Shown here piece after piece: positions 10,986 to 64,000 of a DNA stretch of 64,000 bases; the stretch's first letter is position 1; the number at the start of each line of letters is the position of its first letter. Location: contig NZ_PVZF01000009.1 in NCBI RefSeq assembly GCF_003002055.1, forward strand, positions 186,001-250,000. Direction: 5' to 3'. The DNA is from Kineococcus rhizosphaerae (GTDB lineage: Bacteria > Actinomycetota > Actinomycetes > Actinomycetales > Kineococcaceae). Position numbers and translations under genes: made by a program. The notes beneath the pieces were generated by a model. The model was not told where the DNA came from, searched no databases, and saw only the letters and a list, made by a program, of their open reading frames with translations.

Positions 10986-13316
10986 GTGAGCAGCCACCCC
11001 GCAGACCAGCACGCAGACCTCCACCGCGGGCTGCTGGCCGTCCTGCGCGGCGGCCCGGCCGGCGGCGCGGTCGACGGCCGGGCCCCCGAGCCCGGCCCGG
11101 CGCCCGCCACCGTCTCCCTCGTCCCGCGGACCGCGACGTCGCGCCACCAGCTGGCCGTCGACACCGTCCTGGGCGGCGCACCGGTCCTCGTCGACGTGGG
11201 CGCTCAGGGCCCCGTCCTGCTCGTGGGCCTGCTGACCGCCCTCGCCGCGGCGGGCCGCCGGGTGCGGCTGCTGCCCGGGGCCTCCACGGAGGCGGCCCGC
11301 GAGGAGCTGGGCCGGCTCGGCCTGGCCCACCTGCTGGCCGGCACCGCGGAGGACGTCGCACGCCGCGGCGCGGACCTGCCGCCGACCGACCCGAACCGCT
11401 GGCTGAACCTGCTGCGCGACCTGGACGCGCGCAACCGGTCCTGGTTCACGGCCCGCGAGGGTGCTCCCAGCCGGTTCGAGGCCCTCGCGGGGCTCGCAGC
11501 GCTGCGGGCCGAGCACCTGCACCCGCCGCTGCTGCCCGCGGCGGCGGCGTGGACGGCGGCCGACCGCGCCCGCGTCGTCACGCTCCTGGACCGGGGCCCG
11601 GCCGGGCCGGGCGCCGGCCCCGACCCGCTGGCCGGGGCGTCCGACGAGCAGGTCGCCGCCGTCGCCGACGCGCTGGAGACCCTGCCCGGGCTGCTGGAGC
11701 GGACCGCCGGGTTCGTGGAGCGGCTCCAGCGCCTCGGGTGGCGCGGGCCGGACACCGTGGACGGGCTCGACGTCGCGGTCGCGGTGCTCGCCCGCGTCGA
11801 GGACGTCCAGCGGACCTACGTGGCGGCGGCCCTGCACACCGACCTCGACCAGGCCCGCGCGATCCTGGCCCGCCAGCCGCGGTCCCTGCTGTCGGGCGAG
11901 GAGCGCGAGCGCCGCCGCGAGCTGAAGCGGTTGTCGGCGCTGCGCCACGACGGGGGGTCCTTCGGGACCGCCGACGTCGACGCGCTGGCGGCGGTGCACT
12001 GGGCGTGGGGCGAGCACGCGAACGGCACCCCGGCGGTGCTGCCGGACCGCGCCGACCTCGTCGCGCTGCTGGCGTCGCTGCGCCGCGACCTCGGCCGGGT
12101 GCGTGAGGTCCTCGACGTCCCCGCCGACCCGCCGGTCGCGCACCTGGCGGAGCTGGCCGGGACCGTCCGGGCGGCCGCGGCGGCGGCGCGGGCCCGGCAG
12201 GACCGGGCGGCGGTGGCGGTCGACGGCCTGGACGACCTCGCGGCCGCCGTCCCCTCGGGGGCGACGACGGACGAGGTCGCCCGGCTCGTCGAGGGCACGA
12301 CGTGGCGGGCCGTCGGGGAGGCCCCCGAGCCGGGCGGCGGGTCCGTGGAGGACCTGGCCGAGGAGTTCCGCCGGCTCGACGACCTGCGCCGGGCGCGGGC
12401 CGTGCGGGAGCTGCAGCTGGCGCTGTCGGGGGCGCGGGCGCACGCCGTCCTCGTCGGCGACGACGCGGGCCAGGACGCGGGCCCGGACGCGGGTCCCGCC
12501 GACGTCCCGGTCGACGTCCTCGTGGTGGACGACGCGCACCGGGCGGACGCGGCCCGCCTCGCGCAGCTGGCCGAGGGGGCCCGGCAGGTCGTGCTGCTCG
12601 GGTCCGGCGACGGGGCGCCGGACGCGGCGTGGGCCCGGGCCCGGCAGCTGCTGCCCGTCGTGTCCCTGGAGCTGCCGCTGCGCCGCTCGGCGCTGCACGA
12701 CACCGTCGCCGAGGCCCTGCGCGCCGCCGGGCCCGCCGTCGGGGACGACCCGGCGTCCGGGCTCGTCCTGACCGAGGGCGACACCCGGCTGCGGGTGGAC
12801 GTCGAGGACGCGCTCGCGGCGCTGCGCGTGCAGGACCGGGAGGTGGCGCTGCCGGCCCTGCGCCGGGCCGAGGGCGTCCCGTACCGGGTGCTGCGGGTCG
12901 CGGACTGGTTCGGCGACCACCGGGGCACGACGCGGCGAGTCGTGGAGGCCTTCCGCGCCCTCGAGCCGGCCGCCCCGGCGGGACCGGTCGCGCCGGTCGT
13001 CCCGCCCGCCCCGGTGGACACCTTCCCCCGGGGCCTGGGCTCGGCCGAGGACGCCCACCGCGCCGTGTCGGAGTTCCTGACGGCCCTGGGCGGGGGGAAC
13101 CCGAACATCGACCAGACCCCCGTCGCGGTGGTGGACGCGGCGATCGCGCTGAGCTACGCCGACCTCGGGACGCAGGCCGGCGACCAGGCCGTCCTCGACG
13201 CGGCGATGGACCTGCTGACCTACCGCCGGCGCGGGGTGAAGGTGCTGCGGGCCTTCAAGGACTCGTTGCAGCGCAGCAAGAAGCGGATGCGCGGAGCGGG
13301 CGTCAAGGTCTCCTGA
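10986..13316 (+). CDS. Degenerate superfamily 1 helicase-like protein with nuclease-like C-terminus
   Basis: 776 residues, cytoplasmic. The order resembles large DNA2/NAM7-type helicases: a P-loop-position segment (APVLVDVGAQGPVLLVGLL, about 60-80), a long Ala/Arg-rich helical insert with LLRDLDARNRSW, a Walker-B-position segment VDVLVVDDAHRAD (about 510-525), and a C-terminal stretch with YRVLRVADWFGDHRG reminiscent of the Vsr-like MTES_1575 nuclease domain that ends some of these helicases. The Walker A GxGK(T/S) is gone and DExx reads DDAH, so ATP hydrolysis is unlikely. A final 75-residue helical segment ends in a Lys/Arg-rich tail. The start follows a -10 at 10974, with no ribosome site. 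The assignment rests on motif order and is tentative. Confidence 0.55.
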   Translation: MSSHPADQHADLHRGLLAVLRGGPAGGAVDGRAPEPGPAPATVSLVPRTATSRHQLAVDTVLGGAPVLVDVGAQGPVLLVGLLTALAAAGRRVRLLPGASTEAAREELGRLGLAHLLAGTAEDVARRGADLPPTDPNRWLNLLRDLDARNRSWFTAREGAPSRFEALAGLAALRAEHLHPPLLPAAAAWTAADRARVVTLLDRGPAGPGAGPDPLAGASDEQVAAVADALETLPGLLERTAGFVERLQRLGWRGPDTVDGLDVAVAVLARVEDVQRTYVAAALHTDLDQARAILARQPRSLLSGEERERRRELKRLSALRHDGGSFGTADVDALAAVHWAWGEHANGTPAVLPDRADLVALLASLRRDLGRVREVLDVPADPPVAHLAELAGTVRAAAAAARARQDRAAVAVDGLDDLAAAVPSGATTDEVARLVEGTTWRAVGEAPEPGGGSVEDLAEEFRRLDDLRRARAVRELQLALSGARAHAVLVGDDAGQDAGPDAGPADVPVDVLVVDDAHRADAARLAQLAEGARQVVLLGSGDGAPDAAWARARQLLPVVSLELPLRRSALHDTVAEALRAAGPAVGDDPASGLVLTEGDTRLRVDVEDALAALRVQDREVALPALRRAEGVPYRVLRVADWFGDHRGTTRRVVEAFRALEPAAPAGPVAPVVPPAPVDTFPRGLGSAEDAHRAVSEFLTALGGGNPNIDQTPVAVVDAAIALSYADLGTQAGDQAVLDAAMDLLTYRRRGVKVLRAFKDSLQRSKKRMRGAGVKVS

Positions 13317-56522: not shown

Positions 56523-57782
56523 CTACCCCCCGCCGCGCTGCCCCGCCAGCTCCTGCACGAACCGGGCGATGGACCCGTCCAGGTCGGCGCGCTCGAGCGC
56601 GCGCGGGTCCGCGTTGCTGGCCCGCACCTCCAGCACGGGGATCCCCTGCTCCTGCAGCGCCAGGGTGATGAACCGGGCCCCGGCGACGTCGTCGGCCACC
56701 AGGTGCACGACGCCGTCGACGCCGTGGGTGCGCGCCTCCCGCACGTACCACTGCGGGGCCAGCAGCGGGGAGTACAGCAGGTCGGTCACGCCGACGAACC
56801 GGGCCGCGAGCGCCTCGACCGGGTCGTCGCCGTAGCGGACGTAGCCGTCGGCGGCGATGGCCAGGTACATCGACCACACGAAGACCGCGCCGAACTCCTC
56901 CTCGAACCGGCGGTAGAGCGCGGTATCGCCCCACAGGCCGCGCCCGACCCACATGAGCCGGACCCGCTCGTCGGGCACGACGGCGGTGCCCGCCGCGACG
57001 AGGGCCTCGACCTCGTCGTGCAGGGCCCGGGCGGCGTCGCGGCCCCAGGGGCTGCCCCGGTGCCACTGCGGGACCATGACGGCGGGGATGGTGTCGCTGA
57101 CCCGGACCGGCGTGGGCCGGGCCTGGGCGATCAGGTCGCGGGTGCGCATGTTCCACTCCTCCTGCTCGTTGACGAGGTCCATCACCTCCCGCAGCCGGTC
57201 CAGGTCGAAGGTGCGGCCGGTGCGTTCCTCCAGGAAGGCGATGAGCTGACGGTTCTCCTCGGCCATGAGCGCGATCCGGTCGGCGCCGAAGACGCGCTCC
57301 CAGTCGTGGGCCACGAGGTCCCACCAGCGCTCGGGGGCCGGGACGGCGGCGGTGCGCTCGTACGGGAAGAACGCCGTGCCGGGCTCGTCGGTCCACGCCT
57401 CGAACGCCTTGCCGGTGGCGTCACCGCTCAGCTCGGCGATGACGATGCCCGGCTTCGGCAGCCCGCCCCACAGGGCGTCCTGGTCGGCGACGCCGCGCGA
57501 GCCGAGCGCGAGGACGTCGTACTGGCGGCTGTCGTCGGGGTGGCCCAGCCCGGCCACCACCGCCAGGCTCTCCTGCGCGAGCTGCTTGGCGGTGACGATC
57601 GAGGCCCACCACTGGTTCACGACGTAGGGCACGTCCATCGCGCGCAGGACCTCCTGCGGGGCGTCGGCGTTGACCAGGGCGACGGCCTCCCCGGCGGCGG
57701 CACGCTCGCGCAGGTCGGCGAACCACGCGCGCTGGTGGGCGAGGGCAGCGGTGGTCGCCGCGAGCCGGCCCGCCCCGCTCAC
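56523..57782 (-). CDS. 2-hydroxyacyl-CoA dehydratase-like subunit without cysteines (A)
   Basis: 419 residues of the HgdB/BadD-type fold: AVALVNADAPQEVLRAMDVP, then a long helical mid-section, an activator-like core (VMVPQWHRGSPWGRDAA, RLMWVGRGLWGDTALYRRFE) and a C-terminal VDGVVHLVADDVAGARFITL with QEQGIPVLEVRASNADPRALE. Known members hold a [4Fe-4S] cluster through three Cys, but this protein has no Cys anywhere: the usual GxxC and CK positions read NADAP and ADDVA. GTG 57782 overlaps the upstream stop by GTGA. It is paired with subunit B and a CoA-transferase. The reaction is unknown; radical dehydration as in Clostridium cannot be assumed. Confidence 0.8.
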   Translation of the reverse strand: MSGAGRLAATTAALAHQRAWFADLRERAAAGEAVALVNADAPQEVLRAMDVPYVVNQWWASIVTAKQLAQESLAVVAGLGHPDDSRQYDVLALGSRGVADQDALWGGLPKPGIVIAELSGDATGKAFEAWTDEPGTAFFPYERTAAVPAPERWWDLVAHDWERVFGADRIALMAEENRQLIAFLEERTGRTFDLDRLREVMDLVNEQEEWNMRTRDLIAQARPTPVRVSDTIPAVMVPQWHRGSPWGRDAARALHDEVEALVAAGTAVVPDERVRLMWVGRGLWGDTALYRRFEEEFGAVFVWSMYLAIAADGYVRYGDDPVEALAARFVGVTDLLYSPLLAPQWYVREARTHGVDGVVHLVADDVAGARFITLALQEQGIPVLEVRASNADPRALERADLDGSIARFVQELAGQRGGG

Positions 57783-58930
57783 GCCGACCGCCGGAGCACG
57801 GCGAGGGCGTCGAGCACCGCCTGCGGGTCGTCGGCGGCCGCACCCCGCACGAGCGCGGCGGGCACCCCGGCCGCGGCCCGCTGGCGCGAGTAGTCCCACG
57901 CGGGGGCGTCGTCGTGCTCGCGGACGACGGCCAGCAGCGCCCGGGCGCCGGTGCGCGCGACGCCGGCGGCGGTCGCCGCGGCGCGGGCGGCCATGGTCGA
58001 GGTGGCGGCGGCGGGGGCGCCGACGAGGCGGGCGCGGACGGCGACCTCGGCGGCGGCCTCTCGGGTGCGCGGCGCCGGGCCCGCCGGCGCGTCGGTGAGG
58101 ACCGGGTCGCCCCAGTCGTGGTCCTCCCCGACCACGACGGCACCCGCGGACTCCAGGAGGCGGTAGAGGTCGTCGCCGACCGGTGCGCTGCCGGTCAGCC
58201 AGAGCGGCAGGCCGTCCGCGCGGCGCGGGACGGGCCGGGCCAGCGCGGCCTCGATCGCGGGGAGGGCCTCGGCCCCGGGGGCGCCTGCGGCGAGGCCGTA
58301 GGCGTGCAGGGCCACGGTGCCGCCGGGTCCGGCCGGGTGCGGGCGCCGGTCGTGCAGGTCCCGCAGGACGGCCGTGGTGCGCTGCTGCTGCGCCCACGCG
58401 TCCGCCAGGCTCCCCTCGTCGACCGCGCCGCCGGTCCAGGCCTCCACGGTCCGCAGCATCGAGAGCACCTGCTGCACGTTGAAGCGCACGGTGCTCTCGC
58501 GCGGCAGGTGGACCTGGTCGACCAGGTGGACCGGCAGGGTGGTCCGCCCGCGCCGGTGCAGCTCGTGCAGGACCGCGTGCAGGCGGACGGACCCCTCGCC
58601 GTCGTGGGCGATCAGCAGGCCGCGCAGGGGGTCCAGCTCCCCGGCGAGCACCGCGGCCGCGACGAGCAGCGCGGCGCGGTCGACCGCGCCGCCGAGGTGC
58701 TCGGCGGCCACGGCCACCTCGGCGGCCGCGCGCTCGCGCGGCGGGACCCGGAACGGTTCCCCGCCGGCCGCGGCGACGAGCGCGGCCGGCACGTCGCGGC
58801 CGACGACGCCGACGACCGGTGCGCCGCCCGCGGCCCGCTGCAGCGCGGCGGAGGTGCGGGTGGCGTAGCGCGCGGCGAGTCCGGTGAGGCCCCCGGGGGC
58901 GTCCACCGTGGAGCCGGGAGCGGCGTTCAC
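57779..58930 (-). CDS. 2-hydroxyacyl-CoA dehydratase-like subunit without cysteines (B)
   Basis: 383 residues. GAPVVGVVGRDVPAALVAAA then GGEPFRVPP aligns with the HgdB N-terminal motif GxxCxxxPxExxxAxGxxPxR, lacking the Cys. GLLIAHDGEGSVRLHAVLHE, FNVQQVLSMLRTVEAWTG, PVPRRADGLPLWLTGSAPVG and the C-terminal ALLAVVREHDDAPAWDYSRQ follow the family order. No cysteine occurs in the whole protein. GTG 58930 overlaps the CoA-transferase stop, and its own stop overlaps subunit A. The two subunits probably form a heterodimer. Confidence 0.8.
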   Translation of the reverse strand: MNAAPGSTVDAPGGLTGLAARYATRTSAALQRAAGGAPVVGVVGRDVPAALVAAAGGEPFRVPPRERAAAEVAVAAEHLGGAVDRAALLVAAAVLAGELDPLRGLLIAHDGEGSVRLHAVLHELHRRGRTTLPVHLVDQVHLPRESTVRFNVQQVLSMLRTVEAWTGGAVDEGSLADAWAQQQRTTAVLRDLHDRRPHPAGPGGTVALHAYGLAAGAPGAEALPAIEAALARPVPRRADGLPLWLTGSAPVGDDLYRLLESAGAVVVGEDHDWGDPVLTDAPAGPAPRTREAAAEVAVRARLVGAPAAATSTMAARAAATAAGVARTGARALLAVVREHDDAPAWDYSRQRAAAGVPAALVRGAAADDPQAVLDALAVLRRSA

Positions 58931-60201
58931 AGGGCGCCTGCGGCGCGCAGGGCGGCGATCCGCTCGACGTCGTAGCCCAGGAGTTCGGACAGCACGCTGT
59001 CGGTGTGCTCGCCCAGCCAGGGCGCGGGCCGGTCCAGGGAGGTGCTGCTGCCGGACAGGACGATGGGCACGCCCGAGCCGTACAGCTCCGGCGCGACGCC
59101 GTACACGGGGTGCCGCAGCACCTCCACCTCCCCGCGCTGCAGGACCAGCGGGTCGCGGACGGCCTCGCCGGTGTCGCGCACGACCGCCGCGGGCACGCCC
59201 CGGGCCTCCAGCCTCGCCACGGCGTCGGCGACGTCCAGGCCGGCCGCCCAGTCGCGGATCAGGGCGTGCAGCTCGTCGGCGTGCCGCACCCGCATGTCCC
59301 GCACGGAGAAGCGGGGGTCGTCGGCGAGTTCGGGACGCCCGACGGCGGTGAGCAGGTTCCGGCTGAAGGCGTCGGTCGGCCCGCACAGCGCGAACCAGCC
59401 GTCGGTGCCCTCGAAGACCCCGAACGGCGCGAGCCGGGGCACGTAGGACCCGGTGCGCAGCGGCATGCCGACCTTCTCGAACGCGTCGAAGGGTTCGCAG
59501 GCGACCAGGGACGTCAGCGCGCCCAGCATCGAGACGTCGACGTGCTGACCCCGACCGGTGCGGTCGGCCTCCAGCAGCGCCGACAGCACGCCGATGACGC
59601 CGAACAGCGGCGCGACGAGGTCGGCGATGGGCAGCCCGAACCGGACCGGCGGGTCGCCCGGTTCGCCGGCGGTGAGCATGGTGCCGCTGAGGGCCTGGAT
59701 GATGGTGTCCATCGCCTTGCCGCCGCCGGGCACGCCCTGGGCGCCGAAACCGCTGATGGAGGCGTAGACCAGGCGCGGGTTCAGCTCGTGCACGACGGGG
59801 AAGTCGATGCCGAGGCGGTGCGTCACCCCGGCGCTGAAGTTCTCGACGAGCACGTCGGCCTTCGTCACGAGTTCGCGGAACACGCGGGCCCCCTCGGGGG
59901 TCTTCAGGTTCAGCGTGACGCTCTCCTTGTTCCTGCCCCGCAGCATCATCGAGACCGACATGTCCTTGTCGCTGGTCCGCTGCGCCTGCAACCCCTCGGC
60001 GGAGTAGTAAGGGGCGTTGTTGCGGGAGCTGTCGCCACCGAGCTCGGGGTTCTCGACCTTGATGACCCGCGCGCCGAGCCCGGCCAGCAGCAGGGTCGCG
60101 TAGGGGCCGGACAGGGCCGTGGTGAGGTCCACGACGGTCTTGCCGGCCAGCGGGTGGGCCGTGTCGGGACGGTCGCTGCCGGGACGGTCGGTGTCGGTCA
60201 T
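58927..60201 (-). CDS. Family III CoA-transferase (CaiB/BaiF type)
   Basis: 424 residues. GKTVVDLTTALSGPYATLLL, ARVIKVENPELGGDSSRNNA, a hairpin RNKESVTLNLKTPEGARVF, DVLVENFSAGVTHRLGID and the catalytic RFGLPIADLVAPLFGVI (Asp near 190) are family III signatures. It moves CoA from an acyl-CoA donor to a carboxylic acid. ATG 60201 overlaps the CapA-like stop by ATGA. The neighbouring dehydratase-like subunits would act on the CoA ester formed. Confidence 0.93.
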   Translation of the reverse strand: MTDTDRPGSDRPDTAHPLAGKTVVDLTTALSGPYATLLLAGLGARVIKVENPELGGDSSRNNAPYYSAEGLQAQRTSDKDMSVSMMLRGRNKESVTLNLKTPEGARVFRELVTKADVLVENFSAGVTHRLGIDFPVVHELNPRLVYASISGFGAQGVPGGGKAMDTIIQALSGTMLTAGEPGDPPVRFGLPIADLVAPLFGVIGVLSALLEADRTGRGQHVDVSMLGALTSLVACEPFDAFEKVGMPLRTGSYVPRLAPFGVFEGTDGWFALCGPTDAFSRNLLTAVGRPELADDPRFSVRDMRVRHADELHALIRDWAAGLDVADAVARLEARGVPAAVVRDTGEAVRDPLVLQRGEVEVLRHPVYGVAPELYGSGVPIVLSGSSTSLDRPAPWLGEHTDSVLSELLGYDVERIAALRAAGAL

Positions 60202-61391
60202 CGGGTGGCTCCTCGCTCGTACGGGACGTGCTGCTCGTCCTGCTCGTTCTGCTGGTGCGGTTCGCCCGGTCCGACGCGGACGACGTCGCCGTCGACGGTG
60301 AAACCGGTCGCGAAACCCTCGGCCCGCGTGGTGCGCCGGAGGTACTCCAGGACCGCCCGGCCGTCATCGGCCCCGCCCCACGGCACGGGTCGGGCCCGGC
60401 GGTCGATCCAGCAGGGCACGAACCCGGCGACCACGCGCCCGTCGTCGTGCACGTCGAGGACGGCGATGAGCGTGTTCCGGCTCTCGGGGTGGAACGGGTA
60501 CCACGACGGCAGGTCGGGATCGGGCTCGAAACCGAACAGCCGGCGGCGCCGCAGGGCCCACCGGCGCTGCTCGGCCACGTCCCCGGCGGCGGGGGTGAGG
60601 GCGTCGGTGACGGTGACGAAGTTCCCGAGCCCGTGGAAGATCGGACGGCCCCGGTGCAGCTCGATCCCGCGCGCGACGTGGGCGTGGTGCCCGACGACGG
60701 CCGCGGCGCCCGCGTCCACCGCCGCGTGCGCGACCTCGGTCTCGTAGGCCGCGAGGTCGACGGGGGTGTGCACGAGGCCCTTGTGCAGGGCGACGACGAG
60801 GACGTCGACGGTGGCGGCGACCCGGCGGACCGTCTCCCGCATCCGCGCCAGGGTCTCCGCGTCGGCCCAGGTGTGCACGCTGGGCGGTCCGCCGGGGTTC
60901 GCCCCGACGGGTTCGTAGTGGGTGAGGACCCGTACGTACGCCGCGCCGGGGCGACGGCTGGTCGCCCAGCTGTCGGTGGGGCCCACGCAGTTGAAGGACA
61001 GCACCCCGACGGTGAGGCCGCCGACGCGGGCCAGGGCCGGGACCAGGGCGGCGTCGAGGTCGCCGCCCGCGCCGGTGGTCCGCATCCCGTGCTCGTGCGC
61101 GGCGGCGAGGGTCTGGGCGATGCCCTCGCCGCCGGCGTCGGCGATGTGGTTGCCCGCCAGGGTGAGGACGTCGAACCCTGCGCGGCGCACCGCGCCCAGG
61201 TGCGCCGGGTCCGCCGGTGGTGCCGGGACGTCCACGGTGGCGACGGTGGTCGTCCTGGCGTGCGGCACCTCCAGCTGGCCGACGGTGAGGTCGGCCGCGC
61301 GCAGGAACTCCCGGGCGGGGTCGAAGAAACCGTCGGGGTCGGGCCGGTCGACGACGAGGTCCCCGGTGAGGGCGATGCGGACCGGGCTCAC
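60198..61391 (-). CDS. CapA-like metallophosphoesterase
   Basis: 397 residues. RIALTGDLVVDRPDPDGFFD (first metal Asp), VGQLEVPHA, DVLTLAGNHIADAGGEGI (Asn-His), VLSFNCVGPTDSW, VHTWADAETLARMRETV, VVALHKGL, AVVGHHAHVARGIE (His-x-His) and GLGNFV follow the CapA/PgsA fold. Known members serve poly-gamma-glutamate synthesis or release. There is no membrane anchor or signal peptide, so this is a cytoplasmic variant. GTG 61391 overlaps the hydrolase stop. The C-terminal tail is Gln/Glu-rich. Hydrolysis of a phospho or peptide intermediate is conceivable, but that is inference. Confidence 0.85.
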   Translation of the reverse strand: MSPVRIALTGDLVVDRPDPDGFFDPAREFLRAADLTVGQLEVPHARTTTVATVDVPAPPADPAHLGAVRRAGFDVLTLAGNHIADAGGEGIAQTLAAAHEHGMRTTGAGGDLDAALVPALARVGGLTVGVLSFNCVGPTDSWATSRRPGAAYVRVLTHYEPVGANPGGPPSVHTWADAETLARMRETVRRVAATVDVLVVALHKGLVHTPVDLAAYETEVAHAAVDAGAAAVVGHHAHVARGIELHRGRPIFHGLGNFVTVTDALTPAAGDVAEQRRWALRRRRLFGFEPDPDLPSWYPFHPESRNTLIAVLDVHDDGRVVAGFVPCWIDRRARPVPWGGADDGRAVLEYLRRTTRAEGFATGFTVDGDVVRVGPGEPHQQNEQDEQHVPYERGATR

Positions 61392-62239
61392 GCGCGCACC
61401 GGGGGTTCGGCGACCCCGTTGAGCTCGTCGACGAACACCCGCACCTCGCGCACGAGCCGGTCGGCGGACTCGTCGCCCACCATGTGCCCCTCGTCCTCGA
61501 ACAGGACGGCCTTGGCGCCGCGCACGTGCATGGCGGCGCGCAGCGCCGACTCCGGGGAGATGACCCCGTCTCGCATCCCGGCCAGGACCAGGACGGGCAG
61601 ACGCAGGCCGCGGTAGACCTCGGCGAGTTCTTCGTCGGTCCGCGCCTCGGGGAACGGTTTGCCCTGGTTGATGCTCGCCTCGTCCTCGGGCCGGTCGGCG
61701 GCCTCCTGCGCAGCTTGGGCGAACCGCGCGCGCCGCGACTCCAGCCGGGCCGGGTCGTCGGTCCAGCCCGCGAGCTTCTCGAGCAGGGACGTGACGACCG
61801 CGGGGTCGTGGCGTTCGGCGATGAACCGGCGGCGGCCCTCGGAGGACTCCGTGCCCCCGGCCCGGTCGTGGGGGGTTCCGACGACGGACACGAGCGCCTT
61901 CAGCCGCTGCGGGTGGCGGCGGGCGAGGTGCCAGCCGATCCCGGCGCCGTGCGAGACACCGGTGTACAGGAACCGGTCGAGGCCGAGGCGGTCGGCGACG
62001 GCGCAGACGTCGTCGGCCCACTGGTCCAGCCAGCCGATCGCGGGGGGTTCGGCCGGGTGGGTGGACCGGCCGAAACCCCGGGCCTGGATCGTGTAGACGT
62101 GGTACCCGGTGGGCGGGTCGGCGAGGACCTGCGGGTAGGCCCCGGCCGTGAAACCCATGGCGCAGGACAGCACCACCTCGTCCCCGGAGCCGAACTCCTC
62201 GTACCACAGCTCACCGTCGCCGACGTCGATCGTGGGCAT
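61388..62239 (-). CDS. Alpha/beta hydrolase
   Basis: 283 residues. VVLSCAMGFTAGAYPQVLAD, YTIQARGFGRSTHPAEPPAI and the nucleophile elbow LYTGVSHGAGIGWHLARRHP (Ser near 96) lead to Asp in VLAGMRDGVISPE and His in EDEGHMVGDES. It is a typical epoxide-hydrolase/esterase-like enzyme. ATG 62239 follows the ABC gene by only a few bases. It may open or cleave the substrate taken up by the neighbouring transporter. Confidence 0.9.
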   Translation of the reverse strand: MPTIDVGDGELWYEEFGSGDEVVLSCAMGFTAGAYPQVLADPPTGYHVYTIQARGFGRSTHPAEPPAIGWLDQWADDVCAVADRLGLDRFLYTGVSHGAGIGWHLARRHPQRLKALVSVVGTPHDRAGGTESSEGRRRFIAERHDPAVVTSLLEKLAGWTDDPARLESRRARFAQAAQEAADRPEDEASINQGKPFPEARTDEELAEVYRGLRLPVLVLAGMRDGVISPESALRAAMHVRGAKAVLFEDEGHMVGDESADRLVREVRVFVDELNGVAEPPVRA

Positions 62240-62242
62240 TCC

Positions 62243-63120
<878 letters not shown>

Positions 63121-63124
<4 letters not shown>

Positions 63125-64000
63125 GAGGCGCTCACCGCCACCCGGTCGACGTGGACGCAACGGCTGGTCCGGTCGGCCCCCACCTCCAGCACCGGGACCG
63201 GCGCCGAGCGGCACCGGTCGGTGGCGAACGCGCAGCGCGCGGCGAAGCGGCACCCGACGGGCCACTGCCGCGGGGGCGGGACGACCCCGCCGATGGTGGG
63301 CAGCGGCCGGCCGGGGACGGCGTCGTGCGGGTTGGAGCGCAGCAGCGCCAGCGTGTACGGGTGGCGCGGGGCCGTGAAGGTCGCCCGGACGGGGGCGGAC
63401 TCCACGACCTGCCCGGCGTACATCACGACGGCGCGCCCGCACAGGTCGGCGATGACGCCCCAGTCGTGGCTGACGAGCACGACCGCGGTCCCGGTGCGCT
63501 GCTGCAGGCTGCGCAGCAGGTCGAGGACCTCGGCCTGGACGGTGACGTCGAGCGCGGTGGTCGGCTCGTCGGCGATGAGCAGGCGGGGTTCACCGGCCAG
63601 GGCGATGGCGATGGCGACGCGCTGGGCCATGCCGCCGGAGATCTCGTGCGGGAACCGGCGCGCCACGGCGGGGTCGAGGCGGACGGCGCGCAGCAGGTCG
63701 GCCACCCGCTCCCGCACCTGCGGCCGGCTCAGGCGCCGGTGCGCGCGGGCCGCCTCGGCGATCTGGGCACCGACGCGGAACGAGGGGTCCAGGGAGACCA
63801 TCGGCTCCTGGGAGATCATCGCGATGCCCGCGCCGCGGACCTCGCGCAGTTCCCGGTGCGACAGCCCGACGAGTTCGCGGCCCGCGAACCGGACGGACCC
63901 GGCCAGGACGCGCCCGTTCGCCCCGAGCAGGCCGAGCAGGGCCAGGGCGGTGACGGTCTTGCCGCTGCCGGACTCCCCCACGAGGCCGACGACCTCACCG
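63121..64000 (-). CDS. Oligopeptide-type ABC transporter ATP-binding protein (OppD-like), partial
   Basis: The gene runs off the window edge; about 290 residues are visible. Walker A GLVGESGSGKTVTALALLGL, Q-loop MISQEPMVSLDPSFRVG, signature ISGGMAQRVAIAIALAGEPR, Walker B LLIADEPTTALDVTVQAE and LVSHDWGVIADLC are intact. The C-terminal Cys-rich oligo_HPY region (VGCRFAARCAFATDRCRSAP) supports a peptide/nickel-type system and may bind a Fe-S cluster. Its permeases and binding protein presumably lie outside the window. It heads the visible part of the operon. Confidence 0.93.

Follow-up and report, generated by a model that had tools for sequence, protein, structure and literature searches.

The Gene Pair and Its Fold

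The window analyzed here is a stretch of 64,000 nucleotides from Kineococcus rhizosphaerae (contig NZ_PVZF01000009.1, positions 186,001 to 250,000), and the subject of this report is a pair of adjacent minus-strand genes within it, P1 and P2, which encode two proteins of the HGD-D (PF06050) family of 2-hydroxyacyl-CoA dehydratase-like subunits. The first-pass annotation of this DNA had described two neighboring frames of 419 and 383 residues without a single cysteine (Cys) and had assigned them to the HgdB-type family, and both statements proved correct.

56523..57782, minus strand: P2, HadB/BzdO-type HGD-D subunit, 419 amino acids, GTG start, no Cys
57779..58930, minus strand: P1, HadC/BzdN-type HGD-D subunit, 383 amino acids, GTG start, no Cys

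The ketyl-radical dehydratases and benzoyl-CoA reductases of this fold are textbook examples of enzymes that need a low-potential iron-sulfur cluster, ATP-driven electrons, and anoxia. P1 and P2 score 53.5 and 120.4 bits, respectively, against PF06050, for which the Pfam cut-off is 28.4, and both have the overall fold of the solved HGD-D members; they are the only PF06050 matches in the K. rhizosphaerae genome, the completeness of which is 99.99% by the tool's own figure. They represent two distinct subunit types, HadC/BzdN-like for P1 and HadB/BzdO-like for P2, and the profile-profile match between them is weak (probability 21.9). The single P1 sequence gave two weak, unrelated matches only in a phmmer search of the Protein Data Bank (PDB), the P1 profile retrieved BzdN, and NCBIfam yielded no match for P1 and below-cut-off matches only for P2. 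The possibility that either protein has a different fold was rejected. Overall, the pair is real and conserved, and it lies within a known fold family yet lacks what defines the functional family.

Loss of the Cluster Ligands

Relatives were taken as the best 80 of 324 from a search with P2, and the co-occurrence figures given below are thus valid for close relatives. The alignments, including the window, comprise 76 rows for P2 (5 of the 80 homologues excluded for length) and 69 rows for P1 (11 of the 79 homologues absent, 8 of them for length and 3 left off the list of sequences to be aligned), with the start codons of homologues set by a simple rule. Cys is entirely absent from 11 of 80 P2 and 1 of 79 P1 homologues, and one to four Cys are present in 69 and 70 of them, respectively. 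Because Cys-free proteins are rare among the homologues, the total absence of Cys is local to this genome and not a trait of the family, and these counts led to the rejection of "no Cys" as the defining trait. What is conserved instead is that Cys has been lost from the columns of the cluster ligands; with this qualification, the original observation is confirmed.

In the class I benzoyl-CoA reductase BzdNO (PDB 8s02), the catalytic cluster is ligated by BzdO Cys95, Cys128, and Cys380, and Cys36, Cys73, Cys100, Cys263, Cys293, and Cys327 are listed for the double cubane of BzdN; cluster coordination in HadB is described as in BzdO (PMC11971306). The corresponding sites in the window pair, placed by profile alignments with residues counted by hand, are as follows.

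57525..57527, minus strand: P2 R86, site of BzdO Cys95 (Q87 by hhalign); Cys in 0 of 76 rows at positions 85-88
57423..57425, minus strand: P2 G120, site of BzdO Cys128 (D121 in one alignment); Cys in 0 of 76 rows at positions 119-122
56685..56687, minus strand: P2 V366, site of BzdO Cys380; Cys in 0 of 76 rows at positions 364-367
58679..58681, minus strand: P1 D84, site of BzdN Cys73; Asp in 69 of 69 rows
58598..58600, minus strand: P1 G111, site of BzdN Cys100; Cys in 40 of 69 rows
57911..57913, minus strand: P1 D340, site of BzdN Cys327; Asp in 69 of 69 rows and in 7 of 7 aligned members of other branches

The alignment of the ligand columns that had been proposed as a check thus finds all six Cys sites replaced in the window pair: P2 lacks all three Cys that bind the catalytic [4Fe-4S] cluster in a HadB/BzdO-type subunit, and P1 has none of the cluster ligands of a HadC/BzdN-type subunit. 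An independent profile-profile alignment (hhalign) places the ligand sites within one residue of the BzdO and BzdN alignments. The P2 residues at the three sites are mainly E/R/L/Q, then G, then A/T/V/P, and no actinobacterial P2 row has Cys at, or one residue to either side of, any of them. For comparison, 30 frames with at least six Cys were collected, of which 26 were retained after a profile match; these references, Cys-rich by choice, are 13 pairs from genomes of the same phylum. Three Cys columns are filled in at least half of their rows, and all three are filled in 26 of 26. In the MAFFT alignment the Cys128 column is shifted one residue later than in the BzdO alignment, and Cys is hence seen at column 120 in only 1 of 21 reference rows.

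The Thioester Pocket of P2

In BzdO, Glu65 acts as an acid/base group next to the water bound by the cluster, and the thioester oxygen is gripped by Tyr97, Tyr298, and Gln274 (PMC11971306). The equivalent P2 residues are as follows.

57519..57521, minus strand: P2 Y88, site of BzdO Tyr97; Tyr in 76 of 76 rows
56865..56867, minus strand: P2 Y306, site of BzdO Tyr298; Tyr in 76 of 76 rows
56940..56942, minus strand: P2 R281, site of BzdO Gln274; Arg in 76 of 76 rows
57612..57614, minus strand: P2 Q57, acid/base Glu site (Glu in MbdO; taken as BzdO Glu65); Gln in 76 of 76 rows

The Tyr pair that binds the thioester oxygen is therefore present in P2, and the acid/base Glu adjoining the cluster is not. 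The same holds in a wider set, where Glu fills its column in all 21 Cys-bearing rows and in none of the 19 rows of the P1/P2 clade, and Tyr fills each of the two Tyr columns in all 19 clade rows as well as in 19 of the 21 Cys-bearing ones. BzdO His131 aligns with P2 position 123, which is mostly T, S, or A in the clade; HadB likewise is without this His (PMC11971306). The invariant polar residues of P2 include N38, D40, Q57, D121, R242, and R281. For BzdO Ser44, no alignment of the column to BzdO itself was obtained, and Ser occupies this column in only 11 of 21 Cys-bearing rows; no weight is therefore given to the change to Ala39 in P2. This combination, in which the electron machinery and the Glu are gone and the hold on the thioester is kept, is the main reason to expect a polar acyl-CoA enzyme.

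Electron Supply

No ATP-dependent activase was found in the genome: the activase model TIGR00241 has no match in K. rhizosphaerae, and in a control set it matched 6 of 14 genomes, 5 of them above the cut-off. Fifty carrier loci were submitted to the survey and 48 genomes were covered; TIGR00241 exceeds the cut-off in 2 of these 48, two others show weak matches only (E <= 0.001), and six additional P2-carrying genomes, some of which may be among the 48, have no TIGR00241 match. The two activase-positive carriers, Rhodococcus jostii and a Citricoccus, both hold extra HGD-D pairs, to which the Cys-bearing profile gives much higher scores than the P1 and P2 profiles do. Exactly two PF06050 matches are found in 44 of the 48 genomes, and the remaining four hold 3, 4, 6, and 6. 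The named P2 carriers are actinobacteria that are generally regarded as aerobic.

A distinct situation is found on plasmids of Rhizobium leguminosarum, Sphingopyxis, Rhodococcus ruber, and Azoarcus, where HGD-D pairs with an activase nearby have Cys at all six ligand columns in four of four cases. These pairs have the same fold as P1/P2, and for three of the four plasmids the stretch that carries the pair also contains a CoA-transferase; the pairs differ from P1/P2 in the activase and the six ligand Cys and stand apart from the clade in the trees of both subunits. Together with those of R. jostii and Citricoccus, they appear to be oxygen-sensitive machinery in organisms usually regarded as aerobic or facultative, and several such pairs sit among acyl-CoA dehydrogenase or enoyl-CoA hydratase genes.

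These data bear on the view that P1P2 is still a reductive dehydratase in which the clusters have non-Cys ligands and another reductase serves. The fold is retained, one of the six ligand Cys persists in 40 of 69 P1 rows, and two others persist in sphingomonads. However, six of six sites are non-Cys in the window pair, no activase was found in the genome, the acid/base Glu is gone, and the pairs with an activase nearby keep all six ligand Cys; we regard this view as highly improbable.

Selection, Trees, and Related Branches

Measured against the nearest relative, an Amnibacterium (locus L003), the ratio of nonsynonymous to synonymous substitution rates (dN/dS) is 0.138 for P2, 0.408 for P1, and 0.177 for the CoA-transferase encoded beside them, and the mean column identity is 64% for P2 and 36% for P1. 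Constraint on P2 is as tight as on the CoA-transferase, and P1 is looser and faster-evolving. The occurrence of related frames in 80 loci, together with the low dN/dS, argues against a sequencing slip or a pseudogene, and both explanations are accordingly disfavored. A related suggestion, that the two genes are degenerate and on their way to loss, could draw on the patchy distribution of the clade: among 246 genomes of the class, own genome included, the P2 profile matches 7 at any score and 5 above 660 bits, and P2 was found in 2 of 32 genomes picked from the same phylum for weak PF06050 matches. It could draw as well on Saccharomonospora iraqiensis (L082; genome G563, contig 76, about 202300-207393), in which P1 is apparently split: its two PF06050 pieces are separated by more than 4 kb, as though an insertion had broken the gene. 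Since the frames are open in nearly all loci, dN/dS is well below 1, and gene order is conserved across many genera, we give degeneration next to no credence.

In the P2 tree (42 rows), a branch with 100/100 support separates the 17 ligand-poor proteins from the rest, and in the P1 tree (40 rows), the 15 ligand-poor proteins are set apart by a branch with 100/99 support. Rows of the other subunit type are found across that branch from the ligand-poor proteins in each tree. These trees sample the homologues, omit the fused proteins described below, and include several references on long branches as well as some rows with unusual composition. In the homologue survey that had been suggested, all six ligand Cys are also missing in Rhizobium SSA_523 (L136), in a second Nocardia carnea copy (L150), and in two fused proteins (G075 and G258). 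That second N. carnea copy (L150:761-4686) consists of a diverged P1, P2, and CoA-transferase beside an amino-acid-type ABC transporter assigned by eye.

Sphingomonad plasmids carry a further branch, with P2 proteins 38-39% identical, CapA, hydrolases, and a TRAP transporter; a shortened P1-like protein is seen in three of them (ES2-1, Croceicoccus, and PP1Y). This P2 is without the third ligand Cys and the P1-like protein without all three, and no activase is annotated in the 25-kb stretches, for which the gene table is incomplete. The CoA-transferase of this branch is double, with 694-700 amino acids in two CoA-transferase-like halves, the first of them incomplete.

L133, L134, and L135, about 11842-13143: sphingomonad P2 with CxxC/CxC
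L133:9758-11845, L134:9743-11845, and L135:9776-11860: sphingomonad double CoA-transferase

The Operon and Its Neighbors

Upstream of P1, the window contains the following minus-strand genes.

58927..60201, minus strand: class III (CaiB/BaiF-type) CoA-transferase, 424 amino acids; PF02515, 350.1 bits
60198..61391, minus strand: CapA/PGA_cap-like protein, 397 amino acids; below-cut-off match to the MslH lasso-peptide epimerase model
61388..62239, minus strand: alpha/beta hydrolase, 283 amino acids; nearest NCBIfam models are enol-lactonases, below cut-off
62243..63442, minus strand: oligopeptide-type ABC transporter ATPase frame; family assigned by eye, with no family search

A 4-base overlap occurs at each junction from P2/P1 through P1/CoA-transferase and CoA-transferase/CapA-like gene to CapA-like gene/hydrolase, and these successive overlaps suggest a single coupled operon from P2 through the hydrolase. 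The transporter ATPase gene stops 3 bases before the hydrolase, and more transporter genes, recognized by eye, lie upstream past the window edge. The CoA-transferase belongs to class III on the basis of its CoA_transf_3 match and of D165, which aligns with an Asp of YfdE in an alignment to the PDB entry and is conserved in at least 95% of 78 rows; we take the YfdE Asp to be catalytic.

Co-occurrence was counted in the 75 full-length loci (at least 17 kb) among the 80, presence being a match anywhere in the locus. CoA-transferase, P1, and P2 are all matched in 75 of 75, and by a coordinate rule the gene immediately upstream of P1 is the CoA-transferase in 69 loci, and the one immediately upstream of P2 is P1 in 73; an MFS gene intervenes in L056 and L067. 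The other neighbors are CapA-like proteins (66), amino-acid-type permeases (61), SBP_bac_3-type binding proteins (60), PaaX (49), MFS (41), MarR (22), and CocE (17). These families were named from two loci (L025 and L045) after clustering with a rough open reading frame caller that also picked antisense frames, and one of the four CapA queries was mis-cut and had an internal stop. Transporters vary by lineage among amino-acid-type ABC, oligopeptide-type ABC, and TRAP systems; the amino-acid-type binding protein is missing from the window and from the four loci closest to it (L003, L004, L005, and L019), where oligopeptide-type permeases are seen instead. Hydrolases, MFS proteins, and PaaX and MarR regulators recur, as do MmgE/PrpD proteins in alphaproteobacteria (these lineage comparisons were made partly by eye). 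The neighbors point to carboxylic acids released from esters, lactones, or amides, and no single compound is fixed by them. The near-constant CapA/PGA_cap neighbor, the sole NCBIfam match of which is to the lasso-peptide epimerase model, is odd in a CoA-ester operon.

A single open frame encodes both P1 and P2 in G075 and G258, two same-phylum genomes (768 and 821 codons between stops, the latter frame being still open where its contig begins), and in Microbacterium elymi (L017:7038-9239; 733 codons from the chosen start), which belongs to the window's own branch. These natural fusions support a P1:P2 complex, and the single frame in three genomes is indirect support for a physical complex of the FldABC type.

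The linkage to the CoA-transferase would also fit a non-catalytic role, in which P1P2 is a CoA-ester-binding scaffold, chaperone, or allosteric subunit that captures the CoA-transferase product. Such a gene set would be comparable to the CoA-transferase and two-subunit dehydratase of phenyllactate dehydration, and the constant presence of the CoA-transferase, the loss of the catalytic Glu and the cluster ligands, and the fast evolution of P1 are all compatible with it. However, the constraint on P2 equals that on the CoA-transferase, and P2 has many invariant polar residues, taken from the alignment to line the pocket, beyond what a scaffold needs. We consider a scaffold a minor possibility, and the strong conservation of P2 together with its retained thioester Tyr pair favors an enzyme.

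Proposed Function

The reading that we prefer, with somewhat more than even confidence, is that P1P2 is a heterodimer of the HGD-D fold that has lost its clusters and performs a polar reaction on a CoA thioester supplied by the neighboring CoA-transferase. A carboxylic acid would be imported by the operon's transporter and converted to its CoA thioester by the class III CoA-transferase. P2 would then hold the thioester in the old pocket, the carbonyl being gripped by Tyr88 and Tyr306 and, in the window's branch, probably by Arg281, and would perform an acid-base, enolate-type reaction, for example an elimination, addition, or isomerization, that needs no electrons, ATP, or activase. P1, the former electron-relay subunit, would be a structural or regulatory partner, possibly contributing its invariant carboxylates D84 and D340. 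The fold, the missing ligands and activase, the conserved thioester residues, the linkage to the CoA-transferase, and the fusions in relatives were observed directly; the heterodimer in K. rhizosphaerae, its cluster-free state, and the kind of chemistry are all inferred. The earlier proposal of different, non-reductive chemistry is supported as an inference; a redox-free lyase and a substrate-binding complex, its two suggestions, are both still candidates, and P2 conservation and the Tyr pair favor an enzyme.

Several observations weigh against this reading. No biochemistry was found for any clade member, and the pocket residues of P2 are placed by alignment. Arg281 is replaced by A, T, or N in alphaproteobacterial rows and in the second Nocardia copy. 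In G075 about 5.6 kb separate the CoA-transferase from the P1-P2 fusion, and the first 9 kb of the G258 contig yielded no CoA-transferase. One ligand site persists in most relatives, namely P1 position 111, with the 40 of 69 Cys rows noted above; the invariant or near-invariant P1 residues D84, D110, D340, E269, D270, and H271 could bind metal. In addition, Cys is retained in the sphingomonad P2 at the first and second ligand sites, each with an extra Cys close by (CxxC and CxC), and this protein could bind a metal or a cluster; the motifs may mark an intermediate or a different metal site.

The last points lead to the alternative that P1P2 uses another metal at the old sites as a Lewis acid, either mononuclear Mg, Mn, Zn, or Fe held by carboxylates and His or, in sphingomonads, a metal held by four Cys. 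The change of Cys to Asp at two P1 sites, with Asp in every row at both, would suit this idea, as would the near-invariance of P1 E269, D270, and H271 (66, 68, and 68 of 69 rows) and the sphingomonad pattern. However, the Asp sites are in P1, whereas P2 is taken as the substrate-binding subunit; the residues at the three P2 sites are mostly E/R/L/Q, G, and A/T/V/P; and E269-D270-H271 is not retained in sphingomonad or fusion rows. Overall, we judge a substitute metal to be unlikely, though less so than a retained reductive activity.

In the wider sense of the preferred polar reading, the clade would be an undescribed enzyme family widespread in aerobes, in which the fold of a radical dehydratase has been stripped of its Fe-S clusters and activase and re-used, together with a CoA-transferase, as an oxygen-tolerant polar acyl-CoA enzyme, the sphingomonads being a half-stripped intermediate; our confidence in this broader picture is evenly balanced. 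No account of ligand-free members was found in the literature searched, which was mostly off-target and without subscription papers and is therefore weak evidence of absence. A clade that keeps the fold and the thioester residues without the requirements of electron chemistry would show an enzyme re-tooled for life in air, and it raises the testable question of what the HGD-D pocket can do without a cluster. For genes of aerobes annotated as "2-hydroxyacyl-CoA dehydratase," this activity should be assumed only where ligand Cys and an activase are both found.

Comparison With Known Systems

The window pair differs from the (R)-2-hydroxyisocaproyl-CoA dehydratase HadBC (PDB 3o3m) in having no ligand Cys, Gln at the Glu column, and no activase in the genome. 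P1 and P2 share their fold with the double-cubane cluster protein DCCP (PDB 6eno and 7yyl) and differ from it in having no cluster ligands and two different subunit genes, and no activase-type reductase was found in the genome. The closest parallel in gene content is the phenyllactate dehydratase FldABC/FldI, which combines a class III CoA-transferase with two HGD-D subunits, as in the window; these three genes occur together in all full-length loci, and the window differs in having neither an FldI-type activase nor ligand Cys. Finally, cytochrome P450-like proteins, recognized by eye with no family search, recur near the operon (L056, L025, and L158).

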